NCBI GenBank assembly: GCA_015061285.1 | Contig: SUWW01000006.1 | Coordinates: 124,001-188,000, forward strand | Length of the DNA stretch: 64,000 nt | Direction: 5' to 3' | Source: Bacteroidales bacterium | GTDB taxonomy: Bacteria; Bacteroidota; Bacteroidia; Bacteroidales; Marinilabiliaceae | Shown: one piece after another, positions 775 through 49,548 of the stretch | Position numbering within the stretch: the stretch's first letter is position 1 | Layout of the letters: each line of letters opens with the position of its first letter | Notes under the pieces: generated by a model | Databases searched by the model: none | Told to the model about the DNA's origin: nothing | The model's input: only the letters and a program-made list of their open reading frames with translations | Position numbers and translations under genes: made by a program

Positions 775-793
775 ATCACCGAATTAAACGAAT
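775..793. repeat. outer inverted-repeat arm, cassette 1
   Basis: ATCACCGAATTAAACGAAT lies just upstream of araB. It matches, in opposite orientation, the arm at 1307-1325 (17 of 19 positions) and, directly, the arm at 1275-1293. With the inner repeats it encloses the small gene at 862-1248. Confidence 0.6.
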
Positions 794-833
794 GAAACAA
801 ATTATATGCTTGAAGTTTTATTAGTAAAAAGCC

Positions 834-855
834 TTTTATAATTGAACGAATTATT
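834..855. repeat. inner inverted-repeat arm (left), cassette 1
   Basis: A 22-bp arm starting TTTTATAATTGAACG. It pairs with 1249-1270 with one mismatch. It ends 6 bp from the stop codon of the small gene at 862-1248. Confidence 0.7.
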
Positions 856-861
856 GCTGTG

Positions 862-1248
862 TTACCAACCTTGAATACGAACTAATCTCTGGACTTCTAA
901 CGACGGTTGACCGAAATTTGCCAATAATCCTAATTTAGAATTCGACATTTTCATGTAGTTAAGAGTTTGTGCTTTGAATTCTGGGCGCCAATTTTCTACA
1001 GCCTTTAGTTCTACGATGATTTTCCCATAACAAACAAAGTCTGCACGATATATCTTGCCTATTTCGAATCCCTTATACGAAATGTCAAATTCTTTTTCTC
1101 TTTCGAATGGAATGCCTTGTAATTTGAATTCTATTTCAAGTGCATCTTGATAGACAACTTCGAGGAATCCACAACCGAGTTCTTTATGGACAGACATCAT
1201 AGCACCTACGATTTTATATGCTTCGTCTTTATATATGAGTTCATCCAT
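862..1248 (-). CDS. GxxExxY family protein, copy 1
   Basis: A 128-residue protein of the GxxExxY family, named for the motif seen here as GCGFLEVVY (residues ~25-33). These small proteins are predicted to have a PD-(D/E)xK nuclease-like fold: ADFVCYG and IIVELKAV supply the acidic and E-x-K positions. Their biological role is unknown. The gene sits between araA and araB in the operon direction. It is bounded on both sides by a 22-bp inverted repeat whose right arm abuts the start codon. The start is an ATG at 1248. It looks like a guest in the operon rather than an arabinose gene (inference). Confidence 0.8.
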   Translation of the reverse strand: MDELIYKDEAYKIVGAMMSVHKELGCGFLEVVYQDALEIEFKLQGIPFEREKEFDISYKGFEIGKIYRADFVCYGKIIVELKAVENWRPEFKAQTLNYMKMSNSKLGLLANFGQPSLEVQRLVRIQGW

Positions 1249-1270
1249 AATAATTCGTTTAATTATAAAA
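1249..1270. repeat. inner inverted-repeat arm (right), cassette 1
   Basis: A 22-bp arm containing AATAATTCGTTTAATTAT. It is the complement of 834-855 with one mismatch and directly abuts the start codon of the GxxExxY gene. Confidence 0.7.
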
Positions 1271-1274
1271 AGAA

Positions 1275-1325
1275 ATCACCGAACCGAACTAATGCTCTTA
1301 GTTTCAATTAGTTCAATTCGGTGAT
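1275..1325. repeat. perfect-spaced hairpin between araA and cassette 1
   Basis: Two 19-nt arms (1275-1293 and 1307-1325) pair at 17 of 19 positions around a 13-nt loop. The hairpin lies just downstream of the araA stop and has no run of T, so it is not a typical terminator. It could act as an RNA processing or stabilising hairpin. The same sequence recurs at 775-793. Confidence 0.65.
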
Positions 1326-1335
1326 GTTATGATTG

Positions 1336-2871
1336 CTACTTCAATGCTTTATTCAGCATGTAGTACACCTCGTTGTTGCGGAGTGTCTGCTTGAAGTCGC
1401 TGATGTTGGTATTCTTGTTAATCTTAACATATTCGATACCAAGCATCTCGGCGAAGTCTTCCCAGTACTCTTCGGTGATGTCGTATGAGAATGCGCTGTG
1501 GTGTGTGCCACCTGCGAGAATCCATGCGCCTGCACCGATTTCGAATGTAGGTTGTGGAACCCAAAGTGCCGAAGCAACAGGGAGGTTTGGCATTGGTTTT
1601 GGCTTTATGCACTCAACCTCTTGCGAGATGAGGCGGAAGCGGTTGCCAAGATCAACAACGGTAGCTTTGATACCACGACCAACCTTTGAGGTGAATACGA
1701 GGCGAGCGGTCTGTTGTTTGCGGATACCAATGCCGAGGAAGTGAACTTCGAGAGTAGGTTTGTCGACTGCGATGAGCGGGCAAACTTCGAGCATGTGGCT
1801 TTGGAGGCATGAGCTGCGGTCGCCAGCAAAGTTGAGGGTGTAGTCCTCGAGGAATGAACAGCCTGTTGGCAAACCTTGTGAGATGACCCACAATGTGCGG
1901 TAGAGGCAAGCGGTCTTCCAGTCACCCTCGGCACCGAAACCGATACCTTCGGCCATCAAACGCTGTGAAGCGAGACCTGGAATTTGGTCGAAACCAACGA
2001 AGTTAGGATCGTTGATGTCGGCGTCGCCAAGGTCATCGAAGTTGGTGGTGAATGCAGTTGCGTTCTCGTCTTTCAACACGCGGCGGAGAGCGATTTCTGC
2101 CTTAGCTGCATTCTTAACCTTCTCCCAATAAACCTTTTCGCCACTCTCGTCAATCTTGATGGTATACGACTTTTTGTATTCTTCAACAAGTGCGTCAGCT
2201 TCTGCATCGGTAACCTTCTTGAAGTATTCCATCAATGACGATACTGGGTAGTAGTCAACGTGGTAGCCAAGACGTTGCTCGAATTCTACGCGGTCGCCAT
2301 CGGTAACGGCAACGTTGTTCATATTCATACCGAACATCAAGCAACGAACGTTGTGAGCATCAGCCACACCAGCTGCTACGCGAGCCCAAACAGCGATTTG
2401 CTTCTGAGCTGCCTCGTCTTTCCAGTAACCGCAAACAACTTTGCGAGCTACGCGCATACGAGTGCAGATGTGACCAAACTCAATATCGCCATGAGCCGAT
2501 TGGTTGAGGTTCATGAAGTCCATATCCATAGTAGCCCAAGGAATTTCGGCATTGTATTGAGTGTGAAAGTGGAGCAAAGGTTTCTCGAGAGCCTGAAGAC
2601 CTTTTATCCACATCTTAGCAGGCGAGAAGGTGTGCATCCAAGTGATGATACCAGCGCACTTAGCATCATTGTTGGCAGCCTTCATAACATCTTCAACCTC
2701 TTTTGAAGAGTTTGCTGTACCTTTATAAACAATCTTAACAGGAATGTTACCGCTCTTATTCAAGCCGTCAACCATTTCCTTTGAGTGAGCATCAACGGCA
2801 ACAACAGCGTCGCCACCATAAAGAAGTTGGGCACCAGTGACCCACCAGATTTCTAAATTCTCGAAAGCCAT
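1336..2871 (-). CDS. araA: L-arabinose isomerase
   Basis: Converts L-arabinose to L-ribulose in the cytoplasm; usually a Mn2+-dependent hexamer. I chose the start at 2871 (MAFENLEIWWVTG), which gives 511 residues, the family length. An open extension of 15 codons upstream has no family match. Conserved active-site blocks are visible: GAEGDWKT (~residue 310, catalytic Glu), SFLEDYTLNF (second Glu), SHMLEVCP and GTHHSAFSYD (metal-binding His). It is flanked in the operon by araD upstream and araB downstream, with a GxxExxY gene in each gap. Confidence 0.96.
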   Translation of the reverse strand: MAFENLEIWWVTGAQLLYGGDAVVAVDAHSKEMVDGLNKSGNIPVKIVYKGTANSSKEVEDVMKAANNDAKCAGIITWMHTFSPAKMWIKGLQALEKPLLHFHTQYNAEIPWATMDMDFMNLNQSAHGDIEFGHICTRMRVARKVVCGYWKDEAAQKQIAVWARVAAGVADAHNVRCLMFGMNMNNVAVTDGDRVEFEQRLGYHVDYYPVSSLMEYFKKVTDAEADALVEEYKKSYTIKIDESGEKVYWEKVKNAAKAEIALRRVLKDENATAFTTNFDDLGDADINDPNFVGFDQIPGLASQRLMAEGIGFGAEGDWKTACLYRTLWVISQGLPTGCSFLEDYTLNFAGDRSSCLQSHMLEVCPLIAVDKPTLEVHFLGIGIRKQQTARLVFTSKVGRGIKATVVDLGNRFRLISQEVECIKPKPMPNLPVASALWVPQPTFEIGAGAWILAGGTHHSAFSYDITEEYWEDFAEMLGIEYVKINKNTNISDFKQTLRNNEVYYMLNKALK

Positions 2872-2951
2872 AATCAAAATATTATTTATTGTTTCTTTTG
2901 TTATAATAATTAGCATTAATATCTATTCACAAATCGGGATAAATTCAATCC

Positions 2952-2968
2952 ACTAATTATGATAAATG
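2952..2968. repeat. inverted-repeat arm (left), cassette 2
   Basis: CACTAATTATGATAAAT matches the complement of 3463-3479 at 16 of 17 positions. It lies 13 bp beyond the stop of the second GxxExxY gene. The similarity continues imperfectly outward on both sides. Confidence 0.6.
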
Positions 2969-2981
2969 TGCAATGTATACT

Positions 2982-3413
2982 TTAGTCTGTTATGTATGAT
3001 TTGTAGTTATCATGCGTTAACAGCACAAAACTATCATCGTCTGGTTGATATAGATAACGTTCCGAGTGTAGATTTATTTCTCCAAAATTGATGAGCAATC
3101 CCATGTGAACCTTAGCAATACGCATATAGTTTAGTAGTTGGGCTCTATGTTCTGAACAAATTTCTTCAACCGATTTGAATTCTATTATAATACCATTATA
3201 GTAGAAATCAGCATAATAAATCTTTTGAAGTTCTACACCCTTATACGTTAGTTGTAACTTTTTTTCGCGTTCAATATCAAGTCCTCGCAACTTAGCTTCA
3301 ATTGCATAAGCCTCTTGGTAGATTTGTTCTGCCATGCCACGACCAAGGTTGTTGTGTATCTCCATTGCGATGCCAATAACATCATACATGTCCATATACT
3401 CTTGCTTAGTCAT
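2982..3413 (-). CDS. GxxExxY family protein, copy 2
   Basis: A 143-residue second member of the GxxExxY family (GRGMAEQIY at residues ~24-32), only distantly similar to copy 1 at 862-1248. It keeps the predicted nuclease-like core: YYADFYYNG and IIIEFKSVEE carry the Asp and E-x-K positions. It has about 20 extra residues at the C-terminus. It lies between araD and araA on the operon strand, bounded by inverted repeats at 2952-2968 and 3463-3479. The divergence from copy 1 argues for separate insertion rather than local duplication (inference). Function unknown. Confidence 0.78.
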   Translation of the reverse strand: MTKQEYMDMYDVIGIAMEIHNNLGRGMAEQIYQEAYAIEAKLRGLDIEREKKLQLTYKGVELQKIYYADFYYNGIIIEFKSVEEICSEHRAQLLNYMRIAKVHMGLLINFGEINLHSERYLYQPDDDSFVLLTHDNYKSYITD

Positions 3414-3462
3414 GACATACGTTTATAAGACTTGCAGAACAATCAGGTTAATTATTGAGTCT

Positions 3463-3479
3463 ATTTATCTTAATTAGTG
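3463..3479. repeat. inverted-repeat arm (right), cassette 2
   Basis: ATTTATCTTAATTAGTG is the partner of 2952-2968. The AATTAGTGAAA part is repeated once more about 23 bp further on, just before the araD stop codon. Confidence 0.6.
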
Positions 3480-3515
3480 AAATTGATTTTTCTCAATTAG
3501 TGAAAAATGAGCAAA

Positions 3516-4223
3516 TCAATTTTTCTTTTTCTGTCCGTAATATGCATTTGGACCATGCTTGCGCATATAGTGCTTTTCTACGAGTAGCGGGTTCATCGTA
3601 GTGTTCGGATTGACCGAGAACGATACGAACGCCATCTTAGCGCACTGCTCCATTACTTTAGCGTTGTACACGGCATTGTCGGGCGAAGTGCCCCACGAGA
3701 ACGGACCATGATTCTTAACCAAAACGGCAGGAGTGTGGTCGGGGTTGATCTTGCGGATATTCAAAATTTCGTCCACAATCACATTGCCTGTTTCGAGTTC
3801 GTACTGACCCTTCACCTCTTTCTCCGTCATGTCGCGAGTGCAAGGAATGTCTTTGTAGAAGTAGTCGGCGTGCGTAGTACCAATGTTAGGTATGTCGCGA
3901 CCAGCTTGAGCAAAGGCAGTTGCGTATGTAGAGTGAGTATGAACTACACCCTGAATGTTAGGGAAAGCCTTGTAGAGTACGAGATGCGTAGGCGTGTCGC
4001 TCGATGGGTTGAGGTCGCCTTCAACCACTTTGCCCGTTTCGAGGTCGACTACCACCATATCTTCAACCTTCATCGAGTCGTAGTCGACGCCACTTGGCTT
4101 AATAACTACGAGCCCCTTTTCGCGGTCGATACCACTGACGTTGCCCCATGTGAAGATTACCAATCCTTGCTTAACAAGGTCGAGATTGGCTTTGAATACT
4201 TTTTGTTTTAGATCTTCTAACAT
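3516..4223 (-). CDS. araD: L-ribulose-5-phosphate 4-epimerase
   Basis: A Zn2+-dependent class II aldolase-fold epimerase that turns L-ribulose-5-phosphate into D-xylulose-5-phosphate, feeding the pentose phosphate pathway. It has 235 residues, the normal length. Visible motifs: [10 protein letters not shown] (substrate loop, residues ~24-33), [23 protein letters not shown] (zinc His pair, ~95), TTHADYF and KNHGPFSWG (third His region). The ATG at 4223 follows a short gap after the four-helix-bundle gene. It belongs to the arabinose operon. Confidence 0.95.
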
Positions 4224-4230
4224 TTCTATA

Positions 4231-4260
4231 ATTACGAGTTATGAATTACGAGTTACGAGT
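4231..4260. repeat. AATTACGAGTT-type repeat (left arm, cassette 3)
   Basis: Three imperfect units of (A)ATTACGAGTT in a row. The 12-mer GAATTACGAGTT at 4243-4254 is the exact complement of 4636-4647. The repeat encodes the last residues (RNS and stop) of the four-helix-bundle gene. The same repeat family reappears at about 54297-54325. Confidence 0.65.
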
Positions 4261-4620
4261 TTCTACTTCCAACGAACTCTTTACTGACTTTATTATTGAG
4301 GTTAGAATTTTTTGCAATTCAATGCAATCGTCATTCATCGATTGGTATTGCTCTACTGATATGTAATCTGTTTTTTGCAGTAGCTCTAACCAGTATAAAG
4401 TCTCTTCTCCTTCTTTTCTCGCGATAGATAGTTTATGTACGAAATCACTTTCCGATTCAGCTCGAGATGTTTCTGCAGTATTTGCACCGATAGAAGTGCC
4501 CGAGCGAAAAATCTGTTTGCTCATAACGAACTCGTTCTTTTCGCATAAATACTTATATAAGTTAACTATGCGAATAGAAAACTTCAGCGATTTATCCTTT
4601 ATGATGCTACTTTCTCGCAA
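4246..4620 (-). CDS. four-helix-bundle protein, 23S rRNA intervening-sequence (IVP) type
   Basis: A 124-residue member of the four-helix-bundle family first known as ORFs inside 23S rRNA intervening sequences. Typical family text is visible: SIIKDKS near the start, IVNLYKYL, SKQIFRSGTSIGANTAE (~35-51), DFVHKLSIARKEGEETLYWLELL (shown here only in part by position, ~61-83), then a helix ending LTSIIKS. The start is a TTG at 4620, chosen because family members begin M-x-x-x-I-I-K-D-K-S and no in-frame ATG lies upstream. It sits between the symporter and araD, bounded by an AATTACGAGTT inverted repeat. The C-terminal residues come from that repeat. Confidence 0.78.
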   Translation of the reverse strand: MRESSIIKDKSLKFSIRIVNLYKYLCEKNEFVMSKQIFRSGTSIGANTAETSRAESESDFVHKLSIARKEGEETLYWLELLQKTDYISVEQYQSMNDDCIELQKILTSIIKSVKSSLEVETRNS

Positions 4621-4635
4621 TGTCTTGGAATTAGG

Positions 4636-4652
4636 AACTCGTAATTCGTAAT
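4636..4652. repeat. AATTACGAGTT-type repeat (right arm, cassette 3)
   Basis: AACTCGTAATTCGTAATT lies directly upstream of the four-helix-bundle gene and immediately downstream of the symporter stop. It is complementary to the repeat at 4231-4260. Confidence 0.65.
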
Positions 4653-4659
4653 TAGATTT

Positions 4660-6405
4660 TTACCAAAAATAGCAGTAGAATGCAGCGCAAAGGCCGATAA
4701 CTACAATAGTACCAATAACATCGAATGCACCCCAGCTTTCGCGAATGCTCTTCTTGAAGTCGGACGAGAAGGTGATGGCGTCAACTTGCTCTTTCGATGG
4801 TGCAGGAGTGAAGTAGCTCACTACAACCATTAGTGCTACGATGAAGACGAGTAACCAGCATTCAAATATGAGCCAGTTAGTCTGCCAGAACCATGCTGTG
4901 GCGTCCCAAAATGCGCCGTCCATCGTTGCATGACCTGAGTCGGTTACTACATTGGTTACCAAACGAAGCATACCTATCAAGAAACCACCTATCAAGCCCC
5001 ATTCGCCTGCCTTTGGAGTGATTTTCTTTGAGAATATACCGAGTGTAAATACAGCTACCATAGCTGGTGCTATAAGCGATTGAATATCTTGTAGATATGA
5101 GTATAGGTTGCCCATGTTCATCATGATAGGCATCCATGCTAAGCCGAGAAGCACAACAACTACTGTTGCCATACGACCTACGAATACGTAGTGCTCTTCG
5201 GTCTTGCCTTTCTTCATTGGCTTGTAGAAGTCTTCGGTGAAGAGAGTTGCGCAACTATTGAAGAATGCAGCGAGCGATGCTACAAGAGCGCAAACGAAAC
5301 CGATTGTAACAATGCCTTTGATGCCCGCAGGCAAGATGTTTTTCACCATCATAGCGAAAGCACCATCGGTCGATTCATGGTCGGTTATGTCCATTACTAT
5401 GCCACTACCTTCTTTCAGCGAGAGTGCGTAGGCTATCATACCTGGAATGAGGAACATGAAGCAAGGCAAGATCTTGAAGAAGCCTGCTGCAATAGTACCA
5501 CGACGTGCACGAGCCATAACTACTTTGTTGTCTTCGCCCGGAACCTGACCAAGTACACGCTGTACGATGTGTTGGTCGGTACACCAATACCAAAAACCTA
5601 TTATCGAAGCACCAAGGAATACAACGTAGCCCGGGAATTGTGGATACATTGGGTCGGCGGGGTCGGTATGGAACATGTGAGTTGTGCCAAAACCATCGTG
5701 AGCAGCATCGCAAACAGATTTCATAGCGGCCCAACCATCAACAATGCTTCCGTTGCCCAAAGCCGACAAACCAAGGAATAGCACAAGGAACGAACCAATG
5801 ATAAGAATTGGAGTTTGAATGGTTGAAAGCGTCATAACACCCTTCATACCACCAAAAACGGTAAATACTGCTGTTATGGCAATAAGGCCAATAGCACCAT
5901 ACCAGAAAGGAATATCCAATAAGTATTTGAAGAAAATACCACCAGTGAAAGCGGTTACCGATACCTTAGTTAATACGTATGCAACCAAAGTGATGATTGA
6001 CAACCACGAGCCCGTGCGCTGTGTATAGCGGAACTTGAGGAAGTCGGGCATGGTGATAATCTTACCCATTTTGTTGATGAGAAGTTGGTAGAATGGTACA
6101 AATAACCAACCGAGGATAAGTATCATCCAACCTTGCATCTCCCAGTGTGCCATGCCGACGCCATCTTTTGCACCTGTGCCAGCTAAGCCAACTAAGTGTT
6201 CCGAACCAATGTTGGCAGCAAATATTGCCATGCCGATTACATACCAAGGTTCACCTTTGCCAAAAAGATAGGCTGAAGAATCTTCGCCCTTTTGGGCTTT
6301 TTTGTCTTTCCAAATGGCATACCATACTGCAGCTATCACGCCGATAAGACCCACGACGAGTACTGCCCAGTCGAGCCAAATAAATTCATTCGAAGACCAG
6401 TTCAT
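4660..6405 (-). CDS. sodium:solute symporter (SSS family), probable L-arabinose importer
   Basis: A 581-residue inner-membrane Na+-coupled sugar symporter of the SSS family. The first helix is WAVLVVGLIGVIAAVWYAIW, and about 13-14 hydrophobic segments follow. IFAANIGSEHLVGLAGTGA (~60-78) is the conserved sodium/substrate motif of the SGLT-like branch. Arabinose specificity is inferred from position as the first gene of the ara operon; the sequence alone would also fit galactose or glucose transport. A promoter-like box lies about 100 bp upstream. The start is an ATG at 6405. Confidence 0.88.
   Translation of the reverse strand: MNWSSNEFIWLDWAVLVVGLIGVIAAVWYAIWKDKKAQKGEDSSAYLFGKGEPWYVIGMAIFAANIGSEHLVGLAGTGAKDGVGMAHWEMQGWMILILGWLFVPFYQLLINKMGKIITMPDFLKFRYTQRTGSWLSIITLVAYVLTKVSVTAFTGGIFFKYLLDIPFWYGAIGLIAITAVFTVFGGMKGVMTLSTIQTPILIIGSFLVLFLGLSALGNGSIVDGWAAMKSVCDAAHDGFGTTHMFHTDPADPMYPQFPGYVVFLGASIIGFWYWCTDQHIVQRVLGQVPGEDNKVVMARARRGTIAAGFFKILPCFMFLIPGMIAYALSLKEGSGIVMDITDHESTDGAFAMMVKNILPAGIKGIVTIGFVCALVASLAAFFNSCATLFTEDFYKPMKKGKTEEHYVFVGRMATVVVVLLGLAWMPIMMNMGNLYSYLQDIQSLIAPAMVAVFTLGIFSKKITPKAGEWGLIGGFLIGMLRLVTNVVTDSGHATMDGAFWDATAWFWQTNWLIFECWLLVFIVALMVVVSYFTPAPSKEQVDAITFSSDFKKSIRESWGAFDVIGTIVVIGLCAAFYCYFW

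Positions 6406-49475: not shown

Positions 49476-49548
<73 letters not shown>

Follow-up and report, generated by a model that had tools for sequence, protein, structure and literature searches.

Small genes between inverted repeats in the gaps of a Bacteroidales arabinose operon as candidate insertion cassettes

We analyzed a stretch of 64,000 nucleotides (nt) from a Bacteroidales bacterium of the Marinilabiliaceae (assembly GCA_015061285.1, contig SUWW01000006.1, positions 124,001 to 188,000; hereafter the window), in which every gap of an arabinose (ara) operon holds one small gene between two inverted-repeat arms. The genes encode either a four-helix bundle protein of the 23S rRNA intervening-sequence protein (IVP) type or a GxxExxY protein of the PD-(D/E)XK kind. 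We favor, with moderate confidence, the interpretation that these units are compact insertion cassettes, each consisting of one small gene and two mutually pairing arms, which occupy operon gaps and spread in a homing-like manner. Filled gaps measure about 430 to 730 nt, and the cassettes are mostly read in the direction of the operon. As far as sequence comparison goes, the cassette is inserted as a unit: gene and arms are present in some genomes and absent in others, and gene-less hairpins of the same arm types occur. By the same comparison, one allele of a whole gap content can be exchanged for another, and in other genomes the same gap is occupied by the other protein family.

The ara operon and its cassettes

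The operon lies on the minus strand in the order symporter, IVP open reading frame (ORF), araD, GxxExxY ORF, araA, GxxExxY ORF, and araB, with one small ORF in each gap. The initial annotation had proposed a small operon-strand gene in all three gaps, one encoding a four-helix bundle and two encoding GxxExxY proteins. The ORFs and the family profiles (TIGR02436/PF05635 and TIGR04256/PF13366) confirmed both statements. It had also given each cassette its own inverted repeat; the arms were found at those places, two of the pairs being longer than described, and none of 2,000 dinucleotide shuffles reached the arm score in any of the three gaps. The features are as follows.

4660..6405, minus strand: sodium/solute symporter, host operon (TIGR00813)
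4625..4653, minus strand: 29-nt 5' arm (sense) of cassette 1 with period-7 units such as AATTACG; 90% complementarity with 4244-4272
4246..4620, minus strand: cassette 1 gene, 124-amino-acid (aa) four-helix bundle protein of the 23S rRNA IVP type, TTG start (TIGR02436, E 1.4e-32; PF05635, E 1.6e-28)
4244..4272, minus strand: cassette 1, 3' arm (sense), overlapping the end of the ORF (inverted-repeat search)
3516..4223, minus strand: araD, host operon (NF006047)
3463..3504, minus strand: 42-nt 5' arm (sense) of cassette 2; 79% complementarity with 2926-2967
2982..3413, minus strand: cassette 2 gene, 143-aa GxxExxY / PD-(D/E)XK protein (TIGR04256, E 1.5e-33; PF13366, E 4e-33)
2926..2967, minus strand: cassette 2, 3' arm (sense; inverted-repeat search)
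1336..2871, minus strand: araA, host operon (NF002795)
1307..1325, minus strand: cassette 3, outer 5' arm, 19 nt, 89%; a short hairpin with 1275-1293 is an alternative pairing
1249..1270, minus strand: 22-nt inner 5' arm (sense) of cassette 3; 95% complementarity with 834-855
862..1248, minus strand: cassette 3 gene, 128-aa GxxExxY / PD-(D/E)XK protein with D70, E80, K82 and the GxxExxY motif (TIGR04256, E 1.9e-43)
834..855, minus strand: cassette 3, inner 3' arm (sense; inverted-repeat search)
775..793, minus strand: cassette 3, outer 3' arm, pairing with 1307-1325 and ending directly before the araB start codon
1..770, minus strand: araB, host operon, running past the window edge (ORF; named from gene order and the initial annotation, no family search)

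The two GxxExxY proteins of the window are 44% identical to each other. A profile search of the whole genome, as the initial annotation had proposed, found only two PF13366 and two PF05635 genes, three of these four being in the ara operon. The fourth encodes an IVP and also has its own arms; it lies between a PfkB kinase gene and a KDPG-aldolase gene, which we read as kdgK and kdgA.

Allelic states of operon gaps

Our comparisons used one genome per species, some of them fragmentary, and neighboring genes were assigned by a simple ORF rule. The names mutA, mutB, hisF, leuD, and kdg were checked against Pfam; others, including hisA, hisH, hisI, leuC, nuoC, and nuoD, were given partly by eye. 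Within the genus of the window, araA was found in 13 of 15 genomes, and the ara gaps were read in these. The araD-araA gap had no such gene in 10 of the 13, an IVP gene in G003 and G008, and a GxxExxY gene in the window genome. The araA-araB gap had none in 11 of the 13 and a GxxExxY gene in the window genome and G003. At the symporter-araD gap, compared in 10 genomes (G002, G004, and G007, with a more distant transporter, were left out), only the window genome had a cassette gene, and its nine relatives had none. The closest relative, G003, whose araA is 99% and 100% identical over the two available parts, differs from the window in two of the three gaps: it has an IVP instead of GxxExxY in the araD-araA gap and, in the symporter-araD gap, a hairpin without a gene (judged by eye) instead of the IVP of the window. 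The comparison of relatives that the initial annotation had called for thus bears out insertion. In the third gap, the GxxExxY gene of G003 is 83% identical to its window counterpart. Identity in 40-column windows was 62 to 90% over the first 440 columns of this gap and 97 to 100% over the next 160 (83 in the last, partial one), and the gap looks like a mosaic.

Two further gaps gave similar pictures. Among nine genomes with kdgK of at least 82% identity (loci L104 to L109 fell below 82% and were left out), the kdgK-kdgA gap held an IVP in three, a DUF559 gene in one, and none in four, and one genome had another gene order; the two IVPs besides that of the window genome belong to another kind. 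The leuC-leuD gap, read in three genomes, contains a GxxExxY gene in G003. In the window genome its outer arms are similar to those of G003, the gene is absent, and a different hairpin lies inside. In G004 there is, by eye, an apparent broken IVP between heptamer arms. The inner hairpin of the window genome (L181:1343-1500) consists of TGTTATCCTGAGCGCAGCGAAGGATCT / AGATTCTTCGCTACGCTCAGAATGACA between apparent remnant GxxExxY arms; hairpins of this kind are linked elsewhere to small GIY-YIG genes.

The richest series of alleles came from the mutA-mutB gap. mutB was found in 52 of 71 genomes of the family. Fifty of these loci were read (G046 and G050, with the mutB match at a contig start, were left out), 47 of them with both gap ends; L168 (contig end), L176, and L179 lacked the mutA end. 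The 47 resolved gaps comprised 20 with IVP, 15 with GxxExxY, 5 with a gene-less hairpin, and 7 bare ones, counting one broken IVP frame (L164) and two broken GxxExxY frames (L133 and L166). Gene-less gaps with a hairpin measured 46 to 121 nt and bare gaps 7 to 19 nt. Four of the five gene-less hairpins retain, as judged by eye, the arm type of one family or the other; L175, compared with its filled genus mates L169 and L172, is an example. More than one state was seen within each of the genera g3, g12, g5, g10, and g11. According to the initial annotation, small genes at the same places in distant Bacteroidales with unconserved flanks would speak against insertion. Such genes do occur at the same places in other genera, in the mutA-mutB and hisA-hisF gaps. 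However, this does not refute insertion, because in the mutA-mutB gap they alternate with empty states and with the other family.

We then compared the protein trees with the gaps in which the genes reside. The tree of 49 chosen IVPs (without L164, of 83 aa) required 8 changes of gap label, against a minimum of 7 and 27.4 for shuffled labels. The mutA-mutB (93/87), hisF-hisI (100/100), and, weakly, hisA-hisF (57/42) proteins each fell on one side of a branch; the exceptions were the hisH, kdgK-kdgA, and araD-araA rows, which need two changes each. The GxxExxY tree, without the broken frames L133 and L166, needed 4 changes, the minimum being 4 and unlabelled rows uncounted. Its mutA-mutB proteins form one group from nine genera (88/84), with one efflux-operon row among them. 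These trees suggest that IVP lineages mostly stay at one gap through several genera. As in the ara operon of the window, three gaps of one his operon are filled by three cassettes, 41 to 53% identical (L112, L115, and L116).

Conversely, some cassettes do not follow their host gene. In the mutB tree, G070 groups with G064 and G068 (99/95), whereas its IVP falls in another clade with G025 and others (99/98). Compared with G064 and G068, G070 has flanks of 73 to 100% identity and a gap of only 38 to 73%; compared with G025, its gap is 83 to 96% identical, arms included, and the flanks are about equally close. The gap of G070 resembles that of G025 and differs from those of its mutB sisters, so that the replacement affected the gene and the arms jointly. 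Thus at least one complete cassette with its arms was exchanged independently of the host gene. A second, weaker case is G057, which lies beside G054 in the mutB tree (97/90; genus g3 clade, 100/99) and whose IVP falls with other genera (100/99). An approximately unbiased (AU) test gave a P value of 0.040 against a single g3 clade; the test was chosen after the tree had been seen and the branch is long, so that it is weak alone.

These results bear on the possibility that the small genes are ordinary genes of the host that are passed on along with the operon and sporadically lost, their hairpins resembling attenuators or terminators. Their sense orientation, as in operon genes generally, their long persistence at some sites, and the low ratios of nonsynonymous to synonymous divergence (dN/dS) of 0.05 to 0.19 in the IVP pairs listed (76 to 93% identical) agree with this explanation. 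It does not account for two unrelated families alternating in the mutA-mutB gap, for near-identical operons with different contents, for the conflict between the IVP and mutB trees, or for the replacement of the whole gap in G070, and we consider it improbable.

Arms, transcripts, and proteins

The arms were scored against chance and against other genes. In a test of the flanks of 51 window genes, the two GxxExxY genes ranked at the top (40 and 39), and the next score was 22. The score of the window IVP gene was 22, owing to the overlap of the 3' arm with the ORF end, and rose to 43 once this overlap was allowed. In 37 stretches (the window and 36 others, some overlapping or near-copies), the median flank score was 31 for 48 cassette genes and 18 for 334 other genes; 40 of the 48 reached the 95th percentile of these controls and 22 the 99th. 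Own arms also scored higher than arms combined across loci: medians were 29 versus 18 at 63 loci of the family (25 reaching the cross-locus 99th percentile), 34 versus 17 at 78 GxxExxY loci from many phyla (24 reaching it), and 29 versus 18 at the 30 top-scoring IVP loci from the phylum (10 reaching it). The many-phyla set consists of the best 80 of 565 confirmed relatives from a scan of species genomes, with phyla taken from record titles; L220, without a single ORF, and L214, with too little flank, were not scored. Like rRNA intervening sequences (IVSs), the cassettes have a gene inside a stem of complementary arms.

The two protein families differ in their arm type. In 39 pairs of IVP arms, the value at lag 7 was 0.492 compared to 0.298 after shuffling, and at lag 14 it was 0.454; in the IVP phylum set, values were high at lags 7, 8, and 14 (no shuffle comparison in that set). 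GxxExxY arms of the family (29 pairs) had a weaker rhythm, with 0.335 versus 0.289 shuffled at lag 8 and 0.332 versus 0.274 at lag 10. In the 60 GxxExxY arm pairs from many phyla, lag 9 gave 0.434 versus 0.306 shuffled, a period of 9 to 10, with units such as CACGAATTA and CACAGATTA. The arms vary from locus to locus yet match within one locus. Since each family has its own arm type, protein and arms probably recognize or need each other. IVP-type genes were found in 157 of 198 sampled genomes of the phylum of the window and GxxExxY genes in 48 of 60 genomes of its family. The best 80 of 565 GxxExxY relatives come from Bacteroidota, Cloacimonadota, Calditrichota, Acidobacteria, Planctomycetes, spirochaetes, proteobacteria, Lentisphaeria, and others. 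IVP cassettes also occur in nuoC-nuoD gaps (genes named by eye; L283 and L289), so that respiratory-complex operons are included.

Terminal inverted repeats and gene-less hairpins are likewise features of passenger DNA transposons or units like miniature inverted-repeat transposable elements (MITEs), moved by a transposase in trans, for example a Y1 (IS200-like) enzyme acting on hairpins. Three partial Y1_Tnp matches were found in the window genome. Moreover, three GxxExxY copies of 91 to 95% identity within 7 kb have in common the gene together with about 94 nt upstream and about 107 nt downstream. Against such units, the arms differ per locus and have no common end sequence, most lineages keep to one site rather than scattering, the arm rhythm follows the protein family, and the sole gene of the unit is no transposase. 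We therefore regard movement of this kind as unlikely. The three copies belong to a cluster (L111, G036:C4:15500-35000) of five GxxExxY genes that spans about 13 kb and lies close to apparent polysaccharide export genes.

The initial annotation had read the units as possible IVS-like cassettes living in mRNA. Taken strictly, this would mean that RNase III cuts the mRNA stem, the gene-bearing loop is released, and the arms are selected through RNA. In predicted RNA folds of the three window cassettes, 0.90, 0.88, and 0.77 of the 5' arm pairs with its own 3' arm, and cassettes are mostly sense within the operon (sense, antisense, and mixed in 55, 2, and 4 of 61 in the family and in 26, 0, and 2 of 28 in the IVP phylum set), both in accordance with such a process. 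However, strand-specific counts of G.U versus A.C arm mismatches at 75 loci gave no RNA signal: the G.U fraction was 0.371 in own arms (108:183) and 0.364 in the cross-locus control. Own-arm duplex energies were mostly not below cross-locus ones, and fractions of 0.25, 0.30, and 0.06 of the cross-locus pairs had energies at least as low as those of the three window cassettes; this comparison is uninformative because many cross-locus pairs share arm types. Purifying selection on the cassette proteins also speaks against the strict version, whereas the protein of the Coxiella IVS is thought not to be made (PMC4990558). Insertion as a unit, seen in empty, hairpin-only, and differently filled gaps, and the IVS-like build, chiefly of the IVP cassettes, stand from the initial reading; the mismatch test and the duplex energies lend it no RNA-level signal. 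We hold the strict version to be a possible, if doubtful, explanation. No rRNA family was found at the window or at the 18 + 20 IVP loci checked, and none of the 80 GxxExxY loci was in rRNA; for the GxxExxY units, the IVS label is therefore an analogy.

Two apparent signs of an RNA stage were discarded. An excess of A.C mismatches in the arms (108 versus 183, P = 1.3e-5) reflects base composition, as same-family cross-locus pairs give the same fraction. Sense orientation was dropped as proof of insertion at the RNA level, since genes between co-directional neighbors, cassettes included, are almost as often sense and since only 47 of 69 many-phyla cassettes have both neighbors on their own strand. 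The mostly sense orientation would also suit retro-elements, mobilized via RNA by a reverse transcriptase, as would the kinship of the family with Avd: IVP is presumably a relative of this protein of diversity-generating retroelements (DGRs). A reverse transcriptase acting in trans was rejected, as RVT_1 (PF00078) had no match in the window genome, which is 99% complete, and we consider retro-elements very improbable.

The window IVP scored 99.4 bits against PF05635 (cut-off, 33.8) and 112.1 against TIGR02436 (cut-off, 24), which places it in the family, and relatives with solved structures are available (PDB 2gsc and 2rld). The window GxxExxY proteins belong to TIGR04256/PF13366 by profile score and by their GxxExxY and D...ExK residues; D70, E80, K82, and the GxxExxY motif of the cassette 3 protein are invariant in 28 aligned proteins. 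The predicted model of this protein (mean pLDDT, 94.8) has a PD-(D/E)XK fold with SSO0001, which we take to be a Cas4-like protein, as its closest match, and the predicted fold is in keeping with a nuclease. The cassette 3 gene and its G003 counterpart gave a dN/dS of 0.08; dS was saturated in several GxxExxY pairs. Judged from these ratios and those of the IVP pairs, the cassette proteins are under purifying selection.

Mode of spread and relation to known elements

According to our model of homing-like cassettes, a cassette would spread by copying into the corresponding, still unoccupied gap of another genome, and the flanking operon genes would supply the homology for copying. In the GxxExxY kind, the encoded nuclease may cut at its own hairpin type, and in general the protein would recognize its arms. 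In the mRNA, the arms may form a stem that RNase III could cut as in 23S rRNA IVSs; such a cut would release the cassette and keep damage to the operon small. RNase III of E. coli cleaves operon mRNAs in the regions between genes (PMC8708148). In a broader version, mRNA cassettes would occur bacteria-wide, each with a stem matched to a small protein of its own (either a nuclease or an RNA-binding bundle), release by RNase III, and protein-driven copying into the same gap, and rRNA IVSs would be the ribosomal branch of this much larger family; this version is speculative, and we think it rather unlikely.

Several observations weigh against this model. Movement was not directly witnessed, and no exact junction or target-site duplication was defined. 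The swaps of whole gaps could equally represent plain homologous recombination through the flanks, with the nuclease uninvolved. Eight of the 48 cassette genes lie below the 95th percentile of the controls for flank score and 26 below the 99th. In minimum-energy folds of 36 cassettes (gaps of 400 to 560 nt and those of the window genome; L133, L167, and L170 are outside this range), more than half of the 5' arm was paired in 19. The gap DNA of G057 is 13 to 67% identical per window to that of its clade-mate G058 and 37 to 75% to that of its mutB sister G054, hence no closer to the former; the case for exchange in G057 depends on the protein tree and on a brief stretch of arm similarity noted by eye. 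Some mutA-mutB GxxExxY genes look plainly inherited (95% identical between genera at a dS of 2.66), and none of the 15 genomes of the window genus has a mutB match, so that this site is uninformative on the window itself. Among genes between co-directional neighbors, cassettes included, 237 of 256 are sense, and only 47 of 69 many-phyla cassettes are sense (3 antisense and 19 mixed). Finally, we know of no nuclease activity of IVP, and cutting by its own protein would need a partner.

Homing endonuclease elements form site-faithful lineages that are exchanged between hosts and have empty alleles. The cassettes resemble them in their site-faithful lineages with occupied and empty alleles and in their exchange; IVP, however, is not known as a nuclease. 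The closest match in build is the 23S rRNA IVS of Coxiella burnetii. As described in PMC4990558, a stem of some 28 bp carries a small IVP/S23p gene in its loop, the unit measures 428 to 444 nt, its 5' part contains tandem heptamers (GACAGAT) directly upstream of the gene, RNase III cuts at the start of the heptamers, and the protein is thought not to be produced. The small IVP gene within a stem and the heptamers in the 5' arm are shared with our IVP cassettes. In contrast to this IVS, the cassettes sit between protein genes of operons and not in rRNA (window and 38 IVP loci), their proteins are under purifying selection, and their arms also enclose the unrelated GxxExxY family.

Other repeats are similar in part. 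MacGregor (2015; PMC4679880) describes intergenic direct repeats of the heptamer TAACTGA, often before start codons, in Bacteroidetes, Cyanobacteria, and Beggiatoaceae and discusses them as possible regulatory sites. They share the period of 7 and the intergenic position with IVP arms, whereas the main text does not contain the terms intervening, helix bundle, or S23. Rickettsia palindromic elements (PMC10969869) are also palindromic units in transcribed genes that are tolerated by the host; unlike the cassettes, they measure about 150 bp and lie inside ORFs, and the available part of that paper mentions no IVP or nuclease gene. A further parallel is offered by REPIN-RAYT systems, the subject of PMC3116915. 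In such systems, hairpins are likewise tied to one protein family, occur without a gene, and persist for long; the cassettes have no Y1 transposase in the unit and their arms vary by locus. Two open-licence papers contain the term GxxExxY, and one of them, PMC8934634, mentions it in passing beside a reverse transcriptase. A search of open-licence papers (titles and abstract openings of the top matches) found no description of hairpin cassettes with IVP or GxxExxY genes in operons, and searches with arm-sequence words gave unrelated titles only, among the matches listed.

Compared with known IVSs, what is new is the habitat in operon gaps, the second protein family, and the occurrence of one gap in filled, emptied, and bare natural alleles. 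The combination of gene and hairpin gives a context to IVP and GxxExxY, two families without a settled function, and relates the published heptamer repeats and the rRNA IVSs to a common build. The natural filled, hairpin-only, and empty alleles make the origin and movement of IVSs testable. If RNase III does free the cassettes, many operons would come with cut sites built into their mRNA.

A third small protein family deserves mention. Stand-alone DUF559 (PF04480) genes (L306, L310, L314, L328, and others) often lie between C/G-rich palindromes, for example CCTTCTCC..GGAGAAGG and CCCCTTTAGGGG. At the 17 of 30 DUF559 loci that were scored (eight others lie in long frames and five are without an ORF), the own-arm median was 25 compared to 18 across loci, and the palindromes are perhaps a third arm type. 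At L312, L315, L316, L317, L321, and also L307, DUF559 lies in frame inside what is, by eye, an apparent isoleucyl-tRNA synthetase. Where the sequence was read, the insert follows ..WFDSGAMPYAQ.HYPF and precedes FP(A/S)DFIAEGVDQTRGW, and the hairpin arms are translated as peptide. In the window itself, the sole Rfam match is a tRNA gene at positions 49476-49548.

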